This document shows, in pieces, positions 15,128 through 23,595 of a stretch of 64,000 bases of DNA. The DNA is from Candidatus Kryptoniota bacterium (GTDB lineage Bacteria > Bacteroidota > Ignavibacteria > Kryptoniales > Kryptoniaceae). Within the stretch, counting starts at the first letter, position 1. Each line of letters opens with the position of its first letter. The notes below the pieces were generated by a model that searched no databases, was not told the origin of the DNA, and saw only the letters and a program-made list of their open reading frames with translations. The position numbers were made by a program, and so were the translations under genes. The stretch lies in contig CALJEK010000003.1 in assembly GCA_938074445.1 (NCBI GenBank), forward strand, positions 62,001-126,000, given 5' to 3'.

Positions 15128-16249
15128 TTACTTCATAAGAACCATCTTCTTTGTCGCAACATAACTACCTGCGATCATCCTATACAAGTAAATTCCACTC
15201 GCCACTTTATTCCCGTGGTCATCTGTGCCGTCCCATACAACTTTATACACCCCAGGCTCATACCTTTCACCATCAATTAACCTTCTGACAATCCTCCCCG
15301 ATGTATCATAAATCTCGAGCCTTACATCGCAAGATTTCGGCACAGAAAATTCAATGCTTGTTGACGGATTAAATGGATTCGGGTAGTTTTGGCTCAACTT
15401 AAATGTAAACGCAACATCCGAAAGTTGCTCCACCTTTGTCTGTGGATGGCTCCAGTTCGGTTTATGGCACTGAGTGCAAGTCATAATCGACTTGACATCG
15501 TCCTTATAAGTTGAACCGTGACACATAAGGCAAACTCCAACTACACTTGGTGGTTGATATGTTTGCTGGAATTGTCCATTCTTCCAGGCATTTAACAATT
15601 CAACCGCTTTAGCTGCAACATCACCTGTTAACCTTCCACATCTTTCTCTCCTCTCTAATGAACCGGCTTTATAGCCGGAAGTAACGCACCACTTGCTGAC
15701 CGAAATATGGCATAGCGTTGAACCACAGCTAGATTGTGGCAAAGCTTGATTCAAACGATTATCATAAAATTGACCATTTACAGCATATTGATTGCTTATG
15801 TCACTTGGGAATACCGTCTGAGTATACCAACCCATAAGTTCGTGGACAATTTTATCAGTTGTCGCTTTGTCGCAGAACGAATTAATCGCTGCAGCAGCCC
15901 CCAGCAACGCTCCACAAGTTGTTCCCCATCCAACAACGCCACCGTGCCCATAAATCATCATCTCACACAAAGGTAGTAAACTTGTAAAAGGCTCGCCAAC
16001 TTTTTGATGCATCGCATAAAATATCGCTTTAAATGCACCATAACAACAACCTTTTCCAGTCCAGTAAAATTGATGACCAAGCTTTCTTACATGTTCAGGA
16101 TCAAGTATGTCATACGGCAACGGCCAATTAATTTGAGCCTGGGCTCTCGCTTTGCTAGCGAGGTTAATAAGTGAAAAACCTACTGCTCCCCCAATTGTGC
16201 TTTTTGCTGCAACCTCAAGAAATTGTTTACGTGTTAATTTTCCTTTCAT
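15128..16249 (-). CDS. split-Soret-like di-haem cytochrome with type IX sorting domain
   Basis: A 373-residue exported protein made of three parts. Residues 1-38 are an export signal with TRKQFL, a Tat-like motif with lysine for the second arginine, and a hydrophobic stretch ending ARAQA. Residues about 55-225 match the C_GCAxxG_C_C/split-Soret family: GKGCCYGAF, GHGGVVGWGTTCGALLGA, ERRERCGRLTGD and KAVELLN. Two CxxCH haem-c sites follow at 240-244 (CLMCH) and 258-262 (CTQCH), and CGSTLCH at 175-181 is a possible CX4CH site. Residues about 284-373 are a type IX secretion sorting domain (LSQNYPNPFNPST, then ASGIYLYRM). I chose the ATG at 16249 because the upstream TTG lies within a sigma-54 promoter. 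A role in extracellular or surface electron transfer is inferred. Confidence 0.85.
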   Translation of the reverse strand: MKGKLTRKQFLEVAAKSTIGGAVGFSLINLASKARAQAQINWPLPYDILDPEHVRKLGHQFYWTGKGCCYGAFKAIFYAMHQKVGEPFTSLLPLCEMMIYGHGGVVGWGTTCGALLGAAAAINSFCDKATTDKIVHELMGWYTQTVFPSDISNQYAVNGQFYDNRLNQALPQSSCGSTLCHISVSKWCVTSGYKAGSLERRERCGRLTGDVAAKAVELLNAWKNGQFQQTYQPPSVVGVCLMCHGSTYKDDVKSIMTCTQCHKPNWSHPQTKVEQLSDVAFTFKLSQNYPNPFNPSTSIEFSVPKSCDVRLEIYDTSGRIVRRLIDGERYEPGVYKVVWDGTDDHGNKVASGIYLYRMIAGSYVATKKMVLMK

Positions 16250-16293
16250 AGCTAAGTTACGTGCTTTTGTTTTTGAGTGATTTTTGCTTCGCT

Positions 16294-16310
16294 TTTGCGA
16301 AAGTCGCAAA
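16294..16310. repeat. inverted repeat TTTGCG-N5-CGCAAA overlapping the cytochrome promoter
   Basis: TTTGCG at 16294-16299 and CGCAAA at 16305-16310 are exact reverse complements separated by five bases. The repeat covers the -12 element and the expected start point of the leftward sigma-54 promoter. It could be an operator or an mRNA leader hairpin. Confidence 0.4.
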
Positions 16311-16320
16311 TATTATGCCA
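16305..16320 (-). promoter_or_regulatory. sigma-54 (-24/-12) promoter of the cytochrome gene
   Basis: On the minus strand TGGCAT-AATAT-TTGCG fits the consensus TGGCAC-N5-TTGCW. The invariant GG and GC dinucleotides are present at the correct spacing, with two mismatches outside them. The start point would fall near 16294, giving a leader of about 45 bases before the ATG at 16249. Confidence 0.65.
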
Positions 16321-16613: not shown

Positions 16614-16629
16614 TGGCATTATGATTGCA
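16614..16629 (+). promoter_or_regulatory. sigma-54 (-24/-12) promoter of the GcvH-like/NrfD operon
   Basis: TTGGCAT-TATGA-TTGCA matches the consensus TGGCAC-N5-TTGCW at all but one base (C to T in the -24 box). GG lies at 16615-16616 and GC at 16627-16628. The start point would be near 16640, and a GGAG ribosome-binding site at 16661 precedes the ATG at 16673. Confidence 0.75.
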
Positions 16630-16672: not shown

Positions 16673-17341
16673 ATGGTAGCACTTTTCGTATTAGCAACAA
16701 TCTTAATCTGCATCACGGTTGATTACCTTGTTCAAAAAGCACAGAAAAAGCGCGAAGCTTATCAACCCCAAGTCGTATTAAGTACAGAAAATTTCGTTAT
16801 ACCTCGTGGATTCTTTTTCAGTAAAGTACATACTTGGCTTGAGCTTTTGTTTTCCGGAAGAGTTTATGTTGGTGTCGATGATTTTGTTTCAAAAGTGATT
16901 GGGAAAGTTGACGCAATTGAAGTTCTGCCCGTAGGGGAAAGGGTCAGAAAGGGTGAACCGATATTCAAAATCAAACAAGGCAACCGAAGCCTCGCATTTC
17001 CGTCACCCGTAAATGGAAAGATAATTTCTGTCAATCCAAATGTTTTAGAATCACCGGAAACAATTTTGAAGGACCCGTACCTCAACGGTTGGATTATAAT
17101 GATTGAGCCTGAAGATGTTGCCTCTGAAGTGAAGAATTTACTTATTGGCAATGAAGCTTCACGCTGGTTAAGAAATGAAATAAAAAGGTTTAAAGAGTTT
17201 ATAAGCAGAGAAGCGCCTAAATTTTCACCTGTACCTGAGCCAACCCTAGCCGATGGCGGAGTTGTAGTAAAAGGGGTCTTGCAAAACGTGGATGAAAAAA
17301 CATGGGAAAAATTTGAAAAGGAATTTATTCAGCAACTTTAA
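16673..17341 (+). CDS. membrane-anchored GcvH-like protein lacking the lipoyl lysine
   Basis: 222 residues. One N-terminal membrane segment (about 2-20) is followed by QKAQKKR, so by the positive-inside rule the rest faces the cytoplasm. Residues about 38-148 resemble glycine cleavage H protein: KVHTWLE, IEVLPVGERVRKGEPIFKI, FPSPVNGKIISVN, and DPYLNGWIIMIE. The position of the lipoylated lysine, eight residues before the proline of SPVNG, is N104, so no lipoyl attachment is expected. A C-terminal extension carries PTLADGG (190-196), shared with the second GcvH-like protein at 19325. It is the first gene of an operon behind a sigma-54 promoter. A structural or cofactor-binding role in the NrfD-type complex is inferred. 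Confidence 0.75.
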   Translation: MVALFVLATILICITVDYLVQKAQKKREAYQPQVVLSTENFVIPRGFFFSKVHTWLELLFSGRVYVGVDDFVSKVIGKVDAIEVLPVGERVRKGEPIFKIKQGNRSLAFPSPVNGKIISVNPNVLESPETILKDPYLNGWIIMIEPEDVASEVKNLLIGNEASRWLRNEIKRFKEFISREAPKFSPVPEPTLADGGVVVKGVLQNVDEKTWEKFEKEFIQQL

Positions 17342-17362
17342 AAATTAAACTGGGTTCTTAAA

Positions 17363-18133
17363 ATGAAATATGGAATTTTGATCGACATAACCAAATGCAT
17401 AGGCTGTTACGCTTGCGAAGAAGCCTGCGCCGAAAGGTGGAACAACCCCGTCACGGAAACCCACGAACTCTCCGCGATTCAAAACACCGCAGTTGAAGAC
17501 CACGATGGAACTTATGTCCCCCGACTTTGTATGCACTGCGAAAAACCAACCTGTGCATCTGTTTGTCCAGTGGGGGCATTTCAAAAGACAAAACTAGGAC
17601 CAGTCATCTACGACCCATCAAAATGCTTAGGATGTAGATACTGTATCCAAGCATGTCCATTTGATATACCAAAATATCAATGGGATAAATTAAACCCCAA
17701 AGTTACCAAATGCGATATGTGTTATGAGAGGATAAAGAAAGGTGAGATACCTGCTTGTGTTGAAGCATGCCCAGCCGAAGCAAGAATTTTTGGAACAAAG
17801 GAAGAACTCATAGAGGAAGCAAAAAGAAGAATTGATGAAAACCCAGAAACATATTATCCGCACATTTTTGGCTTAAAAGAAGCCGGGGGAACATCAATAC
17901 TCTATCTTTCAGATAGACCGTTAAATAAACTCGGCTTTAAAGTCAAATTGCCAGAAGTTCCACTTTCCCATTTCACAGAACAAATTATGTCAAAGATTCC
18001 AAACTACATCTTTTGGGGCGGTACATTACTCTTCGGAATTTGGTGGATAACAAAGAGAAGAGACGAAGTTCAACGTCTTCAGAAAAAACTTAAAGAGATG
18101 GAAGAAAACAACAAAAAGGAGAATGAAGAATGA
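17363..18133 (+). CDS. HybA-like four-cluster ferredoxin subunit
   Basis: A 256-residue electron-transfer subunit with four [4Fe-4S] cysteine groups: CIGCYACEEAC near residue 12, CMHCEKPTCASVC near 51, CLGCRYCIQAC near 84, and CDMCYERI with CVEACP near 114-134. It resembles HybA, NrfC and DsrO subunits that pair with NrfD-type membrane proteins. A single membrane segment near residue 215 (IFWGGTLLFGIWW) and a charged coiled tail follow, as in HybA. Unlike HybA it has no visible Tat signal, because the ferredoxin domain begins at residue 1 only 21 bases after the previous gene. The clusters may therefore face the cytoplasm. The stop overlaps the next start (ATGA). Confidence 0.9.
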   Translation: MKYGILIDITKCIGCYACEEACAERWNNPVTETHELSAIQNTAVEDHDGTYVPRLCMHCEKPTCASVCPVGAFQKTKLGPVIYDPSKCLGCRYCIQACPFDIPKYQWDKLNPKVTKCDMCYERIKKGEIPACVEACPAEARIFGTKEELIEEAKRRIDENPETYYPHIFGLKEAGGTSILYLSDRPLNKLGFKVKLPEVPLSHFTEQIMSKIPNYIFWGGTLLFGIWWITKRRDEVQRLQKKLKEMEENNKKENEE

Positions 18134-19314
18134 AGATAAAAAATCTGAAACTTACTTTTTGGGGTGCTGTTTTCTGGATCATAGTTGTGCTCGGCATTTA
18201 CTCAACCATACTTCGTTTTACAAAAGGGCTTGGCGCAGCTACAAATTTAAGCGATAAATTCCCCTGGGGATTATGGATCGGATTTGATGTTTTGTGTGGC
18301 GTTGGACTTGCAGCAGGTGGATTTGTAATAGCTGCGGCTGTTTATATTTTCAACCTTGAAGAATATAAATCAATCCTGCCATCAGCCATTTTAACAGCTT
18401 TTCTCGGTTATCTTCTTGTAATCGTTGCTTTGATCTACGACCTTGGAAAACCATGGAACATATGGCACCCGATCATAATGTGGAACCCTGAATCAGTTAT
18501 GTTTGAAGTAGCATGGTGTGTTATGCTTTATACAACAGTTCTCGCGCTTGAATTCAGCCCAATGCTCTTTCAAAAACTCAGGCTCGAAAAACCACAAAAA
18601 ATAATCAAAAGTTTAACTATTCCACTTGTTGTAGCAGGTGTTATACTTTCAACTTTACATCAATCTTCGCTTGGCTCACTTTATCTTATAGTACCAGAAA
18701 AACTTCACCCAATTTGGTATTCGAGCAACTTGCCTTATCTTTTCTTTCTTTCCGCCGTTGCTGTCGGTCCAGCGATGGTCACAATTGAATCATATCTAAG
18801 TTCAAGAGCTTTTAGAAGAGAGATTGAAATACATATACTATCAAGGCTTGCAAAGGTTACCGCAGTTGCATTAATGGTTTATTTTGTATTGAAAGTTGAA
18901 GACATAGTTAACTATAAACTTTTCCCCTACATCTTCAGCCTAAGATATGAGTCTCTTATGTTCTGGCTTGAATTTGCAGTTGGTGTAATTGTGCCGATAG
19001 CGCTGTTGACCAATTCAAAGATAAGAAAAAGTAAAAAGGGATTGTTTGTTGCTCAATTAATCACAGTGCTTGGTTTTATACTTAATAGATTAAATGTCAG
19101 CATCACTGGGCTTGAAAGTTATACGCAGGCAGGTTATTTCCCAAAATGGACTGAAATATCGGTGACGCTTTTCATAGTTGCACTTGGCTTTGCAGCGTTC
19201 AGATTAATAGCCAAACATTTACCTGTTTTTCCGCCCGAAGTCGAAGAAAGAAAGACTATAACAGAAGGTTTTGAAGTTATATCGATGAGAGAAGTTTTTA
19301 AAGAGCAAATTTAA
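18130..19314 (+). CDS. HybB/NrfD-like integral membrane quinone-reactive subunit
   Basis: 394 residues with about ten membrane segments, of the NrfD/PsrC/HybB family, which exchanges electrons with membrane quinones on behalf of a partner ferredoxin. Recognisable stretches include FPWGLWIGFDVLCGVGLAAGG near residue 44, DLGKPWNIW near 104, and STLHQSSLGSLYLI near 175, typical of the HybB branch. No haem is expected in this family. It is translationally coupled to the HybA-like gene and followed within 10 bases by the second GcvH-like gene. No hydrogenase or molybdopterin catalytic subunit is encoded nearby, so the electron donor or acceptor is unknown. Confidence 0.9.
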   Translation: MKIKNLKLTFWGAVFWIIVVLGIYSTILRFTKGLGAATNLSDKFPWGLWIGFDVLCGVGLAAGGFVIAAAVYIFNLEEYKSILPSAILTAFLGYLLVIVALIYDLGKPWNIWHPIIMWNPESVMFEVAWCVMLYTTVLALEFSPMLFQKLRLEKPQKIIKSLTIPLVVAGVILSTLHQSSLGSLYLIVPEKLHPIWYSSNLPYLFFLSAVAVGPAMVTIESYLSSRAFRREIEIHILSRLAKVTAVALMVYFVLKVEDIVNYKLFPYIFSLRYESLMFWLEFAVGVIVPIALLTNSKIRKSKKGLFVAQLITVLGFILNRLNVSITGLESYTQAGYFPKWTEISVTLFIVALGFAAFRLIAKHLPVFPPEVEERKTITEGFEVISMREVFKEQI

Positions 19315-19324
19315 TTATTTCATT

Positions 19325-19945
19325 ATGCTCGGCAAAGAACTTAAAAACACAAACGAAATTACCGTTTTCGAGGTTATCTCAAAATTTGTCGAGAATCTTA
19401 AGAAGGTAAATTTTCCAGAGGATAGGTTGTATACAAAATCTCAGACATGGATTAGACCTGAAGGTGAATTTGCAACTGTCGGCATATGTGCTTCGATTAT
19501 TTATCTTTTTGCGCCTCTTACTGAATTTATATTCTTACAAGTTCCCTTGCTTATCGAGAAAAGCACACCGTGCGCGTGGGTGATGCACAGAGATGGTATC
19601 TTGACAATTCGCTCGCCCTTTCGCGGCGAGCTTTTTGAAATAAATGAAAGCCTAATCAAACACCCTAACCTTATAAGCCAAGACCCCTACTTCGCGGGAT
19701 GGCTCTTTAAAATTAAAACAGATAAGCCAAACTACAACTTTATGTCTCAATCTGAATTTTCAAAGTTATATCTAAACAAAGTTGAAATCCTCGAAAAAGA
19801 ACTACTTTTGAACTTAGCCGAATCATTTAAACCTGTATCTATCCCGACACTTCAAGACGGTGGAAGAATTATTGAAACAGTCAAAGACCTTTTGGGAGCA
19901 AAACGCTATTTTTCCTTGGTGAACAAAATTTTTGGGTTAATTTAA
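19325..19945 (+). CDS. second GcvH-like protein lacking the lipoyl lysine
   Basis: 206 residues, soluble, paralogous to the GcvH-like protein at 16673. The H-protein-like region spans about residues 33-135: YTKSQTWIRPEGEFATVGI, SPFRGELFEINESL, and DPYFAGWLFKIK, the last almost identical to true GcvH. The lipoyl-lysine position is D90, so it should not be lipoylated. C83 and H88 lie close by and are the only obvious reactive residues there. The C-terminal extension has PTLQDGG at 174-180, matching PTLADGG in its paralogue. It is the last gene of the sigma-54 operon before the sensor kinase; a 100-base gap follows. Confidence 0.75.
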   Translation: MLGKELKNTNEITVFEVISKFVENLKKVNFPEDRLYTKSQTWIRPEGEFATVGICASIIYLFAPLTEFIFLQVPLLIEKSTPCAWVMHRDGILTIRSPFRGELFEINESLIKHPNLISQDPYFAGWLFKIKTDKPNYNFMSQSEFSKLYLNKVEILEKELLLNLAESFKPVSIPTLQDGGRIIETVKDLLGAKRYFSLVNKIFGLI

Positions 19946-20034: not shown

Positions 20035-20072
20035 CTTTAGAGAGAGTGAAATCAACCAACTGTTTTAAAGCG

Positions 20073-21677
20073 ATGAAAATTTTTCAGAGCTTAGCCTTTA
20101 AATTGTTTATCCTTATCTTCATAGTCGTGCTCGGGGTAACGGCTATTTTTTCATTTTTAATCATAGGCTGGCAAACCAGACAATGCTTGCACATTTCAAT
20201 GCAAAACGCGATAAAAACAAGCGATTTAATCAAAAGAGCCACCCATTACAGTATGCTTCATAATCGCCGAGAGGATATCTACCAAATAATAAAAATGCTC
20301 GGGAAACAACCTGGAATTAAAGCAATAAGAATTTATAATAAACGAGGTGAGATTACCTTTTCCACTATACCTGATGAAGTTGGCAGGGTAATACCAATGG
20401 AAAGTGAGGCTTGTAATGTTTGCCATCGCAACGGTAAGATAGAAATCCCCGCCGAAGCTTCACAGCTAACCCGCATATTTCATACGGAGGACGACAAATA
20501 TGAAATCCTTGGGGCAATAAACCCGATAAGAAACGAAGAGTCATGCTATAACTCCGAATGTCACGCACATAAAAGAGAACAAACAATTCTTGGTGTTTTC
20601 GATGTGATGATCTCGCTTAAAGATATGCATGAAAATGTGGAACGCCTTAGCAAAATTCAATATGCAAGTGGATTGGTGATGTTCTTCACTATATCACTTT
20701 TCGTCCTTGTTTTCATCTGGAAATTTGTAAACGCACCGTTAAAAAAATTGACACACGGAACGATAGAAATAATGAATGGGAATCTCAATTTTAAACTTGA
20801 CCTTAAATCAAAAGATGAAATTGGTTTGCTTGCCGACTCGTTCAACAAGATGACAGAAAAACTAAAACAAGCCTATGAAGAACTCACAAATTGGGCTAAA
20901 CTTCTTGAACAAAAAGTTAATGAAAAAACAGCGGAGCTTCAAAGGGCTTATACATATATGATACAAATTGAAAAATTAGCTTCACTGGGCAAACTTTCTG
21001 CAACTGTCGCACATGAGCTTAATAACCCACTCGAGGGAATCCTCACATATGCTAAACTTTTAAAAAGAAAATTTCAAGACGGTCAAATTAACGAAAGAGA
21101 TGAAATAATCAATGAACTTTCAATTATAATTGATGAAACATCGCGTTGTGGGAACATAGTCAAAAACCTTCTCCTGTTCTCAAAACAAAAGGTGGGTGAA
21201 TTTAAAGATGAAGATATCTGTCAGATAATAAAAAGAAGTGTAGCATTGATCTCGCACCATCTTCAAATGAATAACATAAAACTTGAACTTGACATCCCTG
21301 AAAACCCTGTTTTCGTTTTCTGCGACGCTCAACAAATTGAACAAATGCTTCTTGCGATGGAAATAAACTCAATTGAAGCAATGCCGGATGGCGGAACATT
21401 GAGAATCGAACTTAAAGAAATTAACGGCGATAAGATTCAAATTAAGGTGATAGATACGGGGATTGGGATACCAGAAGATATCTTGCCTCATATATTTGAA
21501 CCATTCTTCACAACTAAAAAAGACGCGAAAGGGACCGGACTTGGTCTTGCGGTCGCCTATGGAATTGTCGAAAGGCACAACGGTACGATAAGCGTTGAAT
21601 CCAAAGTAAATCACGGAACAACATTTACAATTACATTGCCAAAAAAGCCAAATATCACTTATGACGCCAAAATTTAG
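20073..21677 (+). CDS. sensor histidine kinase with haem-c motifs in its sensor domain
   Basis: About 534 residues. Two membrane segments (about 8-32 and 199-219) bracket an extracytoplasmic domain that contains CNVCH (114-118) and CYNSECH (158-164), that is, CxxCH and CX4CH haem-c motifs. HAMP, a coiled coil, a HisKA domain with H314 in VAHELNNPLEG, and a complete ATPase domain follow: N box NSIEAM, DTGIGIP, FEPFFTTK, GTGLGLA. It should autophosphorylate in response to redox state or a haem ligand. The gene overlaps the following sigma-54 activator by 17 bases, so the two form a cognate pair. A GTG at 20046 is an alternative start. Confidence 0.88.
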   Translation: MKIFQSLAFKLFILIFIVVLGVTAIFSFLIIGWQTRQCLHISMQNAIKTSDLIKRATHYSMLHNRREDIYQIIKMLGKQPGIKAIRIYNKRGEITFSTIPDEVGRVIPMESEACNVCHRNGKIEIPAEASQLTRIFHTEDDKYEILGAINPIRNEESCYNSECHAHKREQTILGVFDVMISLKDMHENVERLSKIQYASGLVMFFTISLFVLVFIWKFVNAPLKKLTHGTIEIMNGNLNFKLDLKSKDEIGLLADSFNKMTEKLKQAYEELTNWAKLLEQKVNEKTAELQRAYTYMIQIEKLASLGKLSATVAHELNNPLEGILTYAKLLKRKFQDGQINERDEIINELSIIIDETSRCGNIVKNLLLFSKQKVGEFKDEDICQIIKRSVALISHHLQMNNIKLELDIPENPVFVFCDAQQIEQMLLAMEINSIEAMPDGGTLRIELKEINGDKIQIKVIDTGIGIPEDILPHIFEPFFTTKKDAKGTGLGLAVAYGIVERHNGTISVESKVNHGTTFTITLPKKPNITYDAKI

Positions 21678-23007
21678 CATTTTAATAGTTGATGATGAAT
21701 TTATCGTCAGAGATTCCCTTTCAAAATGGTTTACACAAGATGGATATAAAGTTGGCGTGGCAGAAAATGCAGCTCAAGCGCTAAAGTTAATGAACGAAGG
21801 ACCATGGGATATAATTTTCATCGACATTAAAATGCCAGGAATGGATGGACTTGAACTTCAAAAGAGGATAAAAGAAATTGACCCCAACGCTATAATTATC
21901 ATAATAACAGCATTTGCCTCCGTTGACTCAGCTGTTCAGGCTTTAAAAGAAGGAGCCTACGACTACATCACAAAGCCAGTAGACCCTGATTATCTTTCGC
22001 ATCTTGTTAAAAATGCCTTGAAACAGAAAAAATTGACAGATGAAAACATCAAACTGCGCGAACACGTATCTGAACTAATTATGGGTGAAGAACTCATCGG
22101 GGAAAGCCCCCAGATTAAAAAAGTGATTGAACTTGCAAAAACGGTTGCCCCAACAAATACAACTGTAATGATAAGAGGCGAAAGTGGAACAGGGAAAGAA
22201 CTTGTCGCGAGATTAATTCACGCACACAGCCCAAGGAGATATTTTCCGTTTATATCAGTAAATTGCGGGGCAGTCCCCGATACGCTACTTGAATCTGAAC
22301 TTTTTGGACATGAGAAAGGTGCCTTCACAGATGCGCTTTATAGAAGAAAGGGGAAATTTGAACTTGCGGATGGTGGAACAATCTTTCTTGATGAAGTTGG
22401 AACGATAAGTCTAAAAATGCAAATCCAACTTCTTCGCGTCCTCGAAACAAAGCAATTTACAAGAATTGGTGGAAATGAAATAATAACAAGCGATTTCAGA
22501 GTAATTTGCGCAACAAATTCAGACCTTGAACAAGCAGTAAAAGAAGGGAAATTTAGAGAAGACCTTTATTACAGGCTCAATGTTTTTACAATCTTTATCC
22601 CACCGCTGAGAGAAAGAAGAACAGATATACCTCTGATAGCGAATTACTACCTGAAAAAATATGCAGCAATGATGCATAAACCAATAAGCGAGATCTCACC
22701 GGAAGCAATGGACATATTAATAAAATACGACTGGCCTGGGAATGTTAGAGAATTAAAAAACGCCATTGAAAGAGCTATGGTCCTGGCAAAACCACCTATG
22801 ATAAGAGCCCAAGATTTGCCCATTCAAATAACCGAAGAAGAACCAGAAAATGAAACATTAGAAGCAGTTGAAAAAGCACACATACTTAAAATTTTAAACA
22901 AGACAAATTGGAATATAACACAGTCCGCGAAAATTCTCGGCATAGACAGGGTCACACTTTACAACAAAATTGAAAAATACAACTTGAAGAGAAACAGGGT
23001 TGCATAA
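21661..23007 (+). CDS. NtrC-family sigma-54 response regulator
   Basis: 448 residues in three domains. The receiver domain has DD at 11-12, the phosphorylated D55 in FIDIKMPG, T83 and K105. The AAA+ sigma-54 activator domain has Walker A GESGTGKE (173-180) and Walker B IFLDEVG (241-247). Its sigma-54 contact loop reads GAFTDA (220-225) where GAFTGA is the consensus. The C-terminal Fis-type helix-turn-helix lies near residues 412-445 (ITQSAKILGIDRVTLYNKI). It overlaps the haem sensor kinase gene and is therefore its partner. The probable targets are the two sigma-54 promoters about 5 kb upstream, which is inferred from proximity. Confidence 0.93.
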   Translation: MTPKFSILIVDDEFIVRDSLSKWFTQDGYKVGVAENAAQALKLMNEGPWDIIFIDIKMPGMDGLELQKRIKEIDPNAIIIIITAFASVDSAVQALKEGAYDYITKPVDPDYLSHLVKNALKQKKLTDENIKLREHVSELIMGEELIGESPQIKKVIELAKTVAPTNTTVMIRGESGTGKELVARLIHAHSPRRYFPFISVNCGAVPDTLLESELFGHEKGAFTDALYRRKGKFELADGGTIFLDEVGTISLKMQIQLLRVLETKQFTRIGGNEIITSDFRVICATNSDLEQAVKEGKFREDLYYRLNVFTIFIPPLRERRTDIPLIANYYLKKYAAMMHKPISEISPEAMDILIKYDWPGNVRELKNAIERAMVLAKPPMIRAQDLPIQITEEEPENETLEAVEKAHILKILNKTNWNITQSAKILGIDRVTLYNKIEKYNLKRNRVA

Positions 23008-23013
23008 AAATTC

Positions 23014-23595
23014 ATGCCACTGGCAAATTCAAGTAAAATTCTTATAGTCCCAATCCACCCAGTCGATTTTGAACTCGTTTCAACGCTGGTTTCACCATTG
23101 AGCAAAATCTTTAACTGCGAAGTTCTTCTCGACAATACAAATCACATTAATCTCTTATCCACCTACGACAGTTCAAGAGCCCAATTCAACTCAACGAAAA
23201 TAATTTCAATTCTCTTTGAAAAATTTAAAAATTTCAACGGTAAAATCCTTGGTGTGATCTCTGTCGATTTATTTATCCCCGTGCTAACTTATGTGTTTGG
23301 AGAAGCGCAGCTTAAAGGTAAAATTGCCGTTGTTTCAACTTTTAGATTAAGTGAAATAACTTATGGACTCCCAGAAAATAAAAAGTTAACCGCAGAAAGA
23401 CTCCTAAAAGAAGCAGTCCATGAGCTCGGGCATAACTTCGGACTTCTACATTGCGAAAATTATCTATGCGTTATGCATTCCTCAACTTCAGTTGAAGAAG
23501 TTGATATAAAAACGTCGTCATTTTGCGACAAATGCTACGAAGAACTATCAAGGCAAATTTTTTCTGAATTCAATGATCATCATAATGGCAAATAG
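23014..23595 (+). CDS. amzA: archaemetzincin-family metalloprotease
   Basis: A 193-residue zinc peptidase of the archaemetzincin family. The full signature is visible: HELGHNFGLLHC with zinc ligands H136, H140 and H146 and catalytic E137, then C147, C152-VM, and FCDKC (C171 and C174), which form the second, structural zinc site. There is no signal peptide, so it is probably cytoplasmic. It starts 6 bases after the response regulator and may be co-transcribed with it. Its 3' end overlaps the convergent YwiC-like gene by 48 bases. The physiological substrate is unknown. Confidence 0.92.
   Translation: MPLANSSKILIVPIHPVDFELVSTLVSPLSKIFNCEVLLDNTNHINLLSTYDSSRAQFNSTKIISILFEKFKNFNGKILGVISVDLFIPVLTYVFGEAQLKGKIAVVSTFRLSEITYGLPENKKLTAERLLKEAVHELGHNFGLLHCENYLCVMHSSTSVEEVDIKTSSFCDKCYEELSRQIFSEFNDHHNGK

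Follow-up and report, generated by a model that had tools for sequence, protein, structure and literature searches.

Cofactor-free barrel-sandwich hybrid domains occur in RnfC and NqrA, where a lipoyl-like fold sits within a membrane redox enzyme. The energy coupling of NrfD complexes is an open question. As a kind of protein, the lysine-less H fold has precedents: lysine-less H-like proteins, the RnfC/NqrA domains, and the "GcvH-related protein" family of NCBI (NF045810, desulf) are already known. LbpA of the sHdr sulfur-oxidation system is a GcvH homologue that is used outside of glycine cleavage and is lipoylated (PMC10332631). The characterised QrcABCD complex is composed of four subunits, with no GcvH-like proteins among them, and its QrcCD part takes up protons from the cytoplasm (PMC13059093).

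The window analysed here is a 64,000-nucleotide stretch of a Candidatus Kryptoniota genome. It encodes two GcvH-like proteins, the first named HA and the second HB, that also appear to be used outside of glycine cleavage (Table 1). In the open-licence literature searched, GcvH-like proteins are not described together with NrfD, Qrc, a split-Soret cytochrome, a response regulator, or an archaemetzincin; the association with NrfD and Qrc, the receiver fusions, and the sigma-54 and heme-motif two-component context are undescribed there.

Table 1. Features of the HA/HB locus, in window coordinates
Feature	Position	Strand	Description
Split-Soret-type cytochrome c	15128..16309	-	C_GCAxxG_C_C and two CxxCH; Tat-like signal; C-terminal type IX secretion sorting tail
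Second sigma-54-like site	16305..16320	-	One mismatch; upstream of the divergently oriented split-Soret cytochrome gene
Sigma-54 -24/-12 promoter-like site	16614..16629	+	TGGCATTATGATTGCA; perfect match, 43 nt upstream of the start codon of HA
HA	16673..17341	+	Membrane helix at the N-terminus (residues 2-20); GcvH fold lacking the lipoyl-lysine; TLADGG and two helices in the C-terminal module
FeS subunit, HmcB/HybA-like	17363..18133	+	Four [4Fe-4S] motifs, 16 Cys; C-terminal segment probably in the membrane; lacks a signal peptide
NrfD-family membrane subunit, HmcC/HybB/QrcD-like	18130..19314	+	10 TM helices by prediction; charge bias points to N-in/C-in
HB	19325..19945	+	GcvH fold without lipoyl-lysine; TLQDGG tail
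Membrane histidine kinase	20046..21677	+	CNVCH and CYNSECH (c-type heme motifs) in predicted periplasmic sensor region; beside HB in relatives
NtrC-family response regulator	21661..23007	+	Receiver, sigma-54 AAA+, Fis HTH
Archaemetzincin-type metalloprotease (M54)	23014..23595	+	HELGHNFGLLHC...CxxC; closes the cluster as its conserved final gene

An H-protein fold without the lipoyl-lysine

Both proteins match the Pfam GCV_H profile (HA, 73.2 bits; HB, 54.9 bits; cut-off 22.2). Their scores to the GcvH equivalog TIGR00527, 61.8 bits for HA and 48.2 bits for HB, are well under the cut-off of 115.85. The AlphaFold models have a pLDDT of 83 for HA and 86 for HB, and Foldseek matches to GcvH crystal structures reach target TM-scores of up to 0.92-0.94 for HA and 0.88-0.91 for HB. 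Profile and predicted structure thus agree with the first-pass annotation of this DNA, which held that the H-protein fold is kept. The likeness to GcvH (PF01597/TIGR00527) consists of the fold, at a TM-score of about 0.9, the H-x-W segment, the SPxxG turn, and the DPYxxGW strand. HA and HB differ from GcvH by the lost lipoyl-lysine and its motif, by their distance from gcvP/T, and by the low equivalog scores; both add a C-terminal DGG-helix module, and HA also adds a membrane helix.

The first-pass annotation had placed the lipoyl-lysine position at N104 of HA and D90 of HB, and profile alignment, multiple alignment, and predicted structure all lead to these two residues. N104 lies in the context PIFKIKQGN104RSLAFPSPVNGK, and D90 in PCAWVMHRD90GILTIRSPFRGE. 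By DSSP on the models, N104 is found between strands 96-102 and 105-110, and D90 between strands 82-88 and 91-96. The profile alignments of HA and HB to solved H proteins are ungapped from this hairpin to the SPxxG turn, and the lipoyl-lysine of 1onl and 3a8i falls on N104 and D90; the multiple alignment puts both residues in the lipoyl-lysine column. A lysine was sought at the hairpin tip of HA and HB and is absent from both, and lipoylation at a shifted lysine was rejected on this ground. R105 of HA adjoins the tip, and the E-S/A-x-K recognition motif around the lipoyl-lysine is gone in both proteins. The structural comparison with GcvH that had been suggested as a check gave a match for each protein and no other lysine at the lipoylation site. 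HA and HB are therefore GCV_H-fold proteins whose cofactor site is lost.

The loss is family-wide and more than chance. The lipoyl-lysine column holds K in 25/25 true GcvH sequences versus 14 of 123 distinct relatives of HA and HB, in which G, D, N, or E is mostly found and S also occurs. The 14 K-bearing relatives are without the motif that surrounds the lysine in true GcvH, and true GcvH forms one clan apart from every lysine-less group (FastTree support 0.99). The replacement residue at the hairpin tip was considered as a new active site and was rejected, as in HA this is one of the more variable columns, and in HB it shows a D/E tendency. The host genome keeps an ordinary GcvH on another contig, directly before gcvPA, that scores 169.8 bits to TIGR00527 (cut-off 115.85); the HA/HB neighbourhood has no gcvP or gcvT. 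Full-length matches of the HA type are nearly absent from the same phylum outside the class. The host is a relative of Candidatus Kryptonium; its nearest named record is Ca. Kryptonium thompsonii, with 85% identity in HA, and the published Kryptonia genomes come from hot springs (PMC4737851).

The lysine-less proteins match the Pfam entry "Glycine cleavage H-protein" and are easily mis-annotated as glycine cleavage enzymes. Proteins of the HA/HB type are a cofactor-free group apart from true GcvH that is linked both to anaerobic respiratory modules and to two-component systems with heme motifs.

An extra C-terminal module, composed of a T-x-x-DGG motif and then a helix, is common to HA, HB, and the GcvH-like proteins that Qrc operons encode. 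In HA, many invariant residues fall in this module (W165, E169, R172, DGG194-196, F214, and F218), and none is at the hairpin tip. HB relatives outside the genus possess a conserved N-terminal four-Cys segment, C-x12-C-x(5-6)-C-x2-C, that is missing from the HB of the window, and the sole Cys of HA sits in its membrane helix. Small single-helix membrane proteins with LGIT[ML]ADGG, like the tails of the GcvH-like proteins, are encoded in or beside Qrc operons (L041:13460-13759, L044:8167-8484, and L057:13385-13666). The shared sequence suggests that LGIT[ML]ADGG is a common docking motif of these small proteins and the GcvH-like tails. In one Qrc operon, the product of the first GcvH-like gene (L041:12444-13385) has N-terminal Cys-rich repeats (RCPFL...C) without a Pfam match.

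Gene neighbourhood of HA, HB, and their relatives

As first noted from the window, the two GcvH-like copies flank a ferredoxin/NrfD pair, and this arrangement is seen in many genomes. The conserved order is larger than the redox pair and consists of HA, the FeS subunit, NrfD, HB, the histidine kinase, the response regulator, and the M54 protease; it recurs in many genomes of the class. Among 24 named loci, several of them truncated at a contig end, 21 have NrfD nearby, 22 the kinase, 20 the regulator, and 19 the M54 protease. These 24 include loci titled Deltaproteobacteria and one from an unclassified bacterium, where the unit recurs in part. The CxxCH and CX4CH motifs are present in the kinase of 5/5 relatives inspected.

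The redox pair has the features of an NrfCD-type quinone module, namely PF13247, PF03916, the 16 Cys, and the 10 TM helices. Its two subunits are closest to HmcB and HmcC, but they do not reach the equivalog scores (FeS, 243.9 versus 420; NrfD, 354.5 versus 550). In comparison with the Hmc (HmcBC)/HybAB and QrcABCD complexes, the window operon encodes no catalytic or multiheme subunit, and its FeS subunit has no Tat signal; HmcA is likewise missing from the operon. HA and HB share an H-like fold with NF045810 and score 32 and 46 bits, respectively, far under its cut-off of 150. They are without a lipoyl-lysine, unlike LbpA, and no Hdr genes are found among the neighbours inspected around HA and HB. 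The comparison with the lipoate-binding proteins of sulfur-oxidising Hdr systems, proposed in the first-pass annotation, is not borne out. Membership of the HA/HB module in Hmc, Qrc, LbpA, or NF045810 was rejected because required cut-offs or features are missing.

Relatives of HA and HB flank true Qrc operons, whereas Qrc as described has no GcvH-like subunits. Each of the 17 QrcD loci found in the class lies within 1.5 kb of a GcvH-like gene. The Qrc loci inspected at length have one such gene at each end, or two consecutive ones after qrcD, and mostly carry a divergent kinase/M54/regulator set. Another operon type is composed of HmcB, HmcC, a 13-heme cytochrome, and a heme-motif kinase, and then two receiver-GcvH fusions. 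The fusions (L059, L062, L063, and L102; Response_reg, 96-108 bits) stand in tandem directly after the heme-motif kinase, and their architecture makes it possible that the GcvH-like domain is a new response-regulator output domain. A receiver domain was sought in the HA and HB of the window and is absent. In two related drafts (L080 and L092), HA is followed directly by HB, the kinase, the regulator, and the protease, and no NrfD was found across these draft genomes. The FeS/NrfD loss, seen in draft genomes only, was probably a single event.

Membrane sidedness and proposed role

The QrcD and HmcC homologues studied here are N-in/C-in by charge bias, like the NrfD of the window, and from this homology the periplasmic face is the expected docking side of the FeS subunit. 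The FeS subunit of the window has no export signal, which leaves this placement tentative. A QrcC homologue inspected in a relative also starts without an export signal, which makes co-export of the FeS subunit with a partner possible; the window operon encodes no partner. For HA, a K/R-rich stretch comes after the sole membrane helix. Receiver domains work in the cytoplasm, and in the HmcBC/13-heme operon type a membrane helix stands before the receiver domain of the second receiver-GcvH fusion. From the basic stretch and this fusion, we infer that the GcvH-like proteins are most likely cytoplasmic, on the face opposite to the FeS docking side of homologous complexes.

We propose, with a probability of roughly 0.45, that HA and HB are an ancient, cofactor-free, cytoplasmic adaptor or regulatory pair that couples NrfD-type quinone modules to two-component signalling. 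HA would be held in the membrane by a single helix and carry its H-fold on the cytoplasmic side, and HB would be soluble. Through the C-terminal DGG-helix module, the pair would dock on the cytoplasmic face of the FeS-NrfD module, which is the proton-uptake side of NrfD-type subunits, and once in contact with NrfD would tune or report the activity of the quinone module. The kinase, which may sense through its periplasmic c-heme motifs, would act with the NtrC-type regulator to set the expression of the whole unit via the sigma-54 promoter. Where relatives have receiver-GcvH fusions, the H-fold proteins would be direct phosphorylation targets of the same kinase. A regulatory or adaptor role on the cytoplasmic face would explain both why receiver fusions exist and why the pair persists where NrfD is missing. 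Against it stand the lack of a receiver domain in the HA and HB of the window and the lack of the relatives' cysteines in HB.

The first-pass annotation had seen a repurposed H-protein fold in a membrane redox complex. The kept fold, the lost cofactor site, and the position of the pair on either side of FeS/NrfD sustain the repurposing and the link to a membrane redox module. Membership of the complex itself fares less well: the conserved partners are equally the kinase, the sigma-54 regulator, and the archaemetzincin, and the receiver fusions, the L080/L092 pair without FeS/NrfD, and the predicted cytoplasmic placement all leave it less certain. The main rival to the adaptor reading retains this membership and takes HA and HB as constitutive structural or assembly subunits of FeS-NrfD, or of Qrc in relatives, that take no part in signalling, with the kinase, regulator, and protease controlling only expression and turnover. 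It is quite possible, as the pair brackets both FeS-NrfD and QrcABCD operons and co-regulation by the downstream regulator would fit ordinary structural subunits equally well. RnfC and NqrA likewise contain cofactor-free barrel-sandwich domains, and HA matches such profiles weakly (PF05896, E=0.0015; PF13375, E=0.034), though the architecture of RnfC and NqrA differs from that of HA. What tells against structural subunits is the existence of receiver-GcvH fusions, the retention of the pair with kinase and regulator where NrfD is lost, and the four-subunit composition of characterised QrcABCD, without such proteins (PMC13059093).

The remaining alternatives concern the H fold itself. Binding of another ligand or cofactor instead of lipoate, be it a small molecule or a metal or FeS bound through the four-Cys segment found in HB relatives, is improbable: the segment is conserved outside the genus, but it is missing from the HB of the window, no residue is fixed at the hairpin tip, and the single Cys of HA lies within the membrane helix. 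A reading of HA and HB as decoys, or as degenerate paralogues, with ties to lipoate or glycine metabolism is strongly disfavoured. They share the fold of H protein, yet a true GcvH is present with gcvPA elsewhere in the genome, and the lysine-less groups fall outside the clan of true GcvH and have conserved synteny. Least credible of all is lipoylation of HA or HB on another lysine. The K found in the column of 14/123 relatives is its one point in favour, set against the hairpin tips without lysine and the lost E-S/A-x-K motif.

In an extended form of the adaptor reading, which we regard as unlikely, the lysine-less GcvH fold would be a general signalling or adaptor domain for respiratory complexes of the NrfD type, and a phospho- or redox-controlled pair at their cytoplasmic face would gate the proton uptake of Hmc-like and Qrc modules or report the state of these modules to a heme-motif two-component system. 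If this were true, there would be a regulated class of NrfD complexes. If the role of HA and HB is regulatory in any form, control of NrfD complexes would be shown. The proteins are a directly testable set that includes natural receiver-GcvH fusions.

Sigma-54 promoter-like sites and adjacent genes

The locus has the parts of a two-component-regulated sigma-54 operon: a histidine kinase, an NtrC-type regulator, and a -24/-12 promoter-like site. The 2.28 Mb genome contains 13 perfect sites of this type, versus 0 for the reversed-pattern control. The adjacent NtrC-type regulator would be the obvious activator of the site before HA. Sites with a score of at least 14/15 precede HA in L036/L071, L039, L052, L053, L056, L079, L087, and L091, and are not present in every relative. 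Paired divergent sigma-54-like sites recur in two relatives of the genus, L036/L071 and L039. Other perfect sites in the host genome (C1:75617, C22:68511, and C39:35093) precede a flagellar basal-body rod gene, a DnaK-like gene, and a gene for a secreted protein, respectively.

The bacterial archaemetzincin keeps the full zinc-site motif. The split-Soret cytochrome gene is adjacent in 4/5 genus genomes whose locus was inspected, and the signal and sorting tail of its product predict export to the cell surface. The listed TTG start of this gene is probably 20 codons too early, with the likely start being the ATG at 16249.
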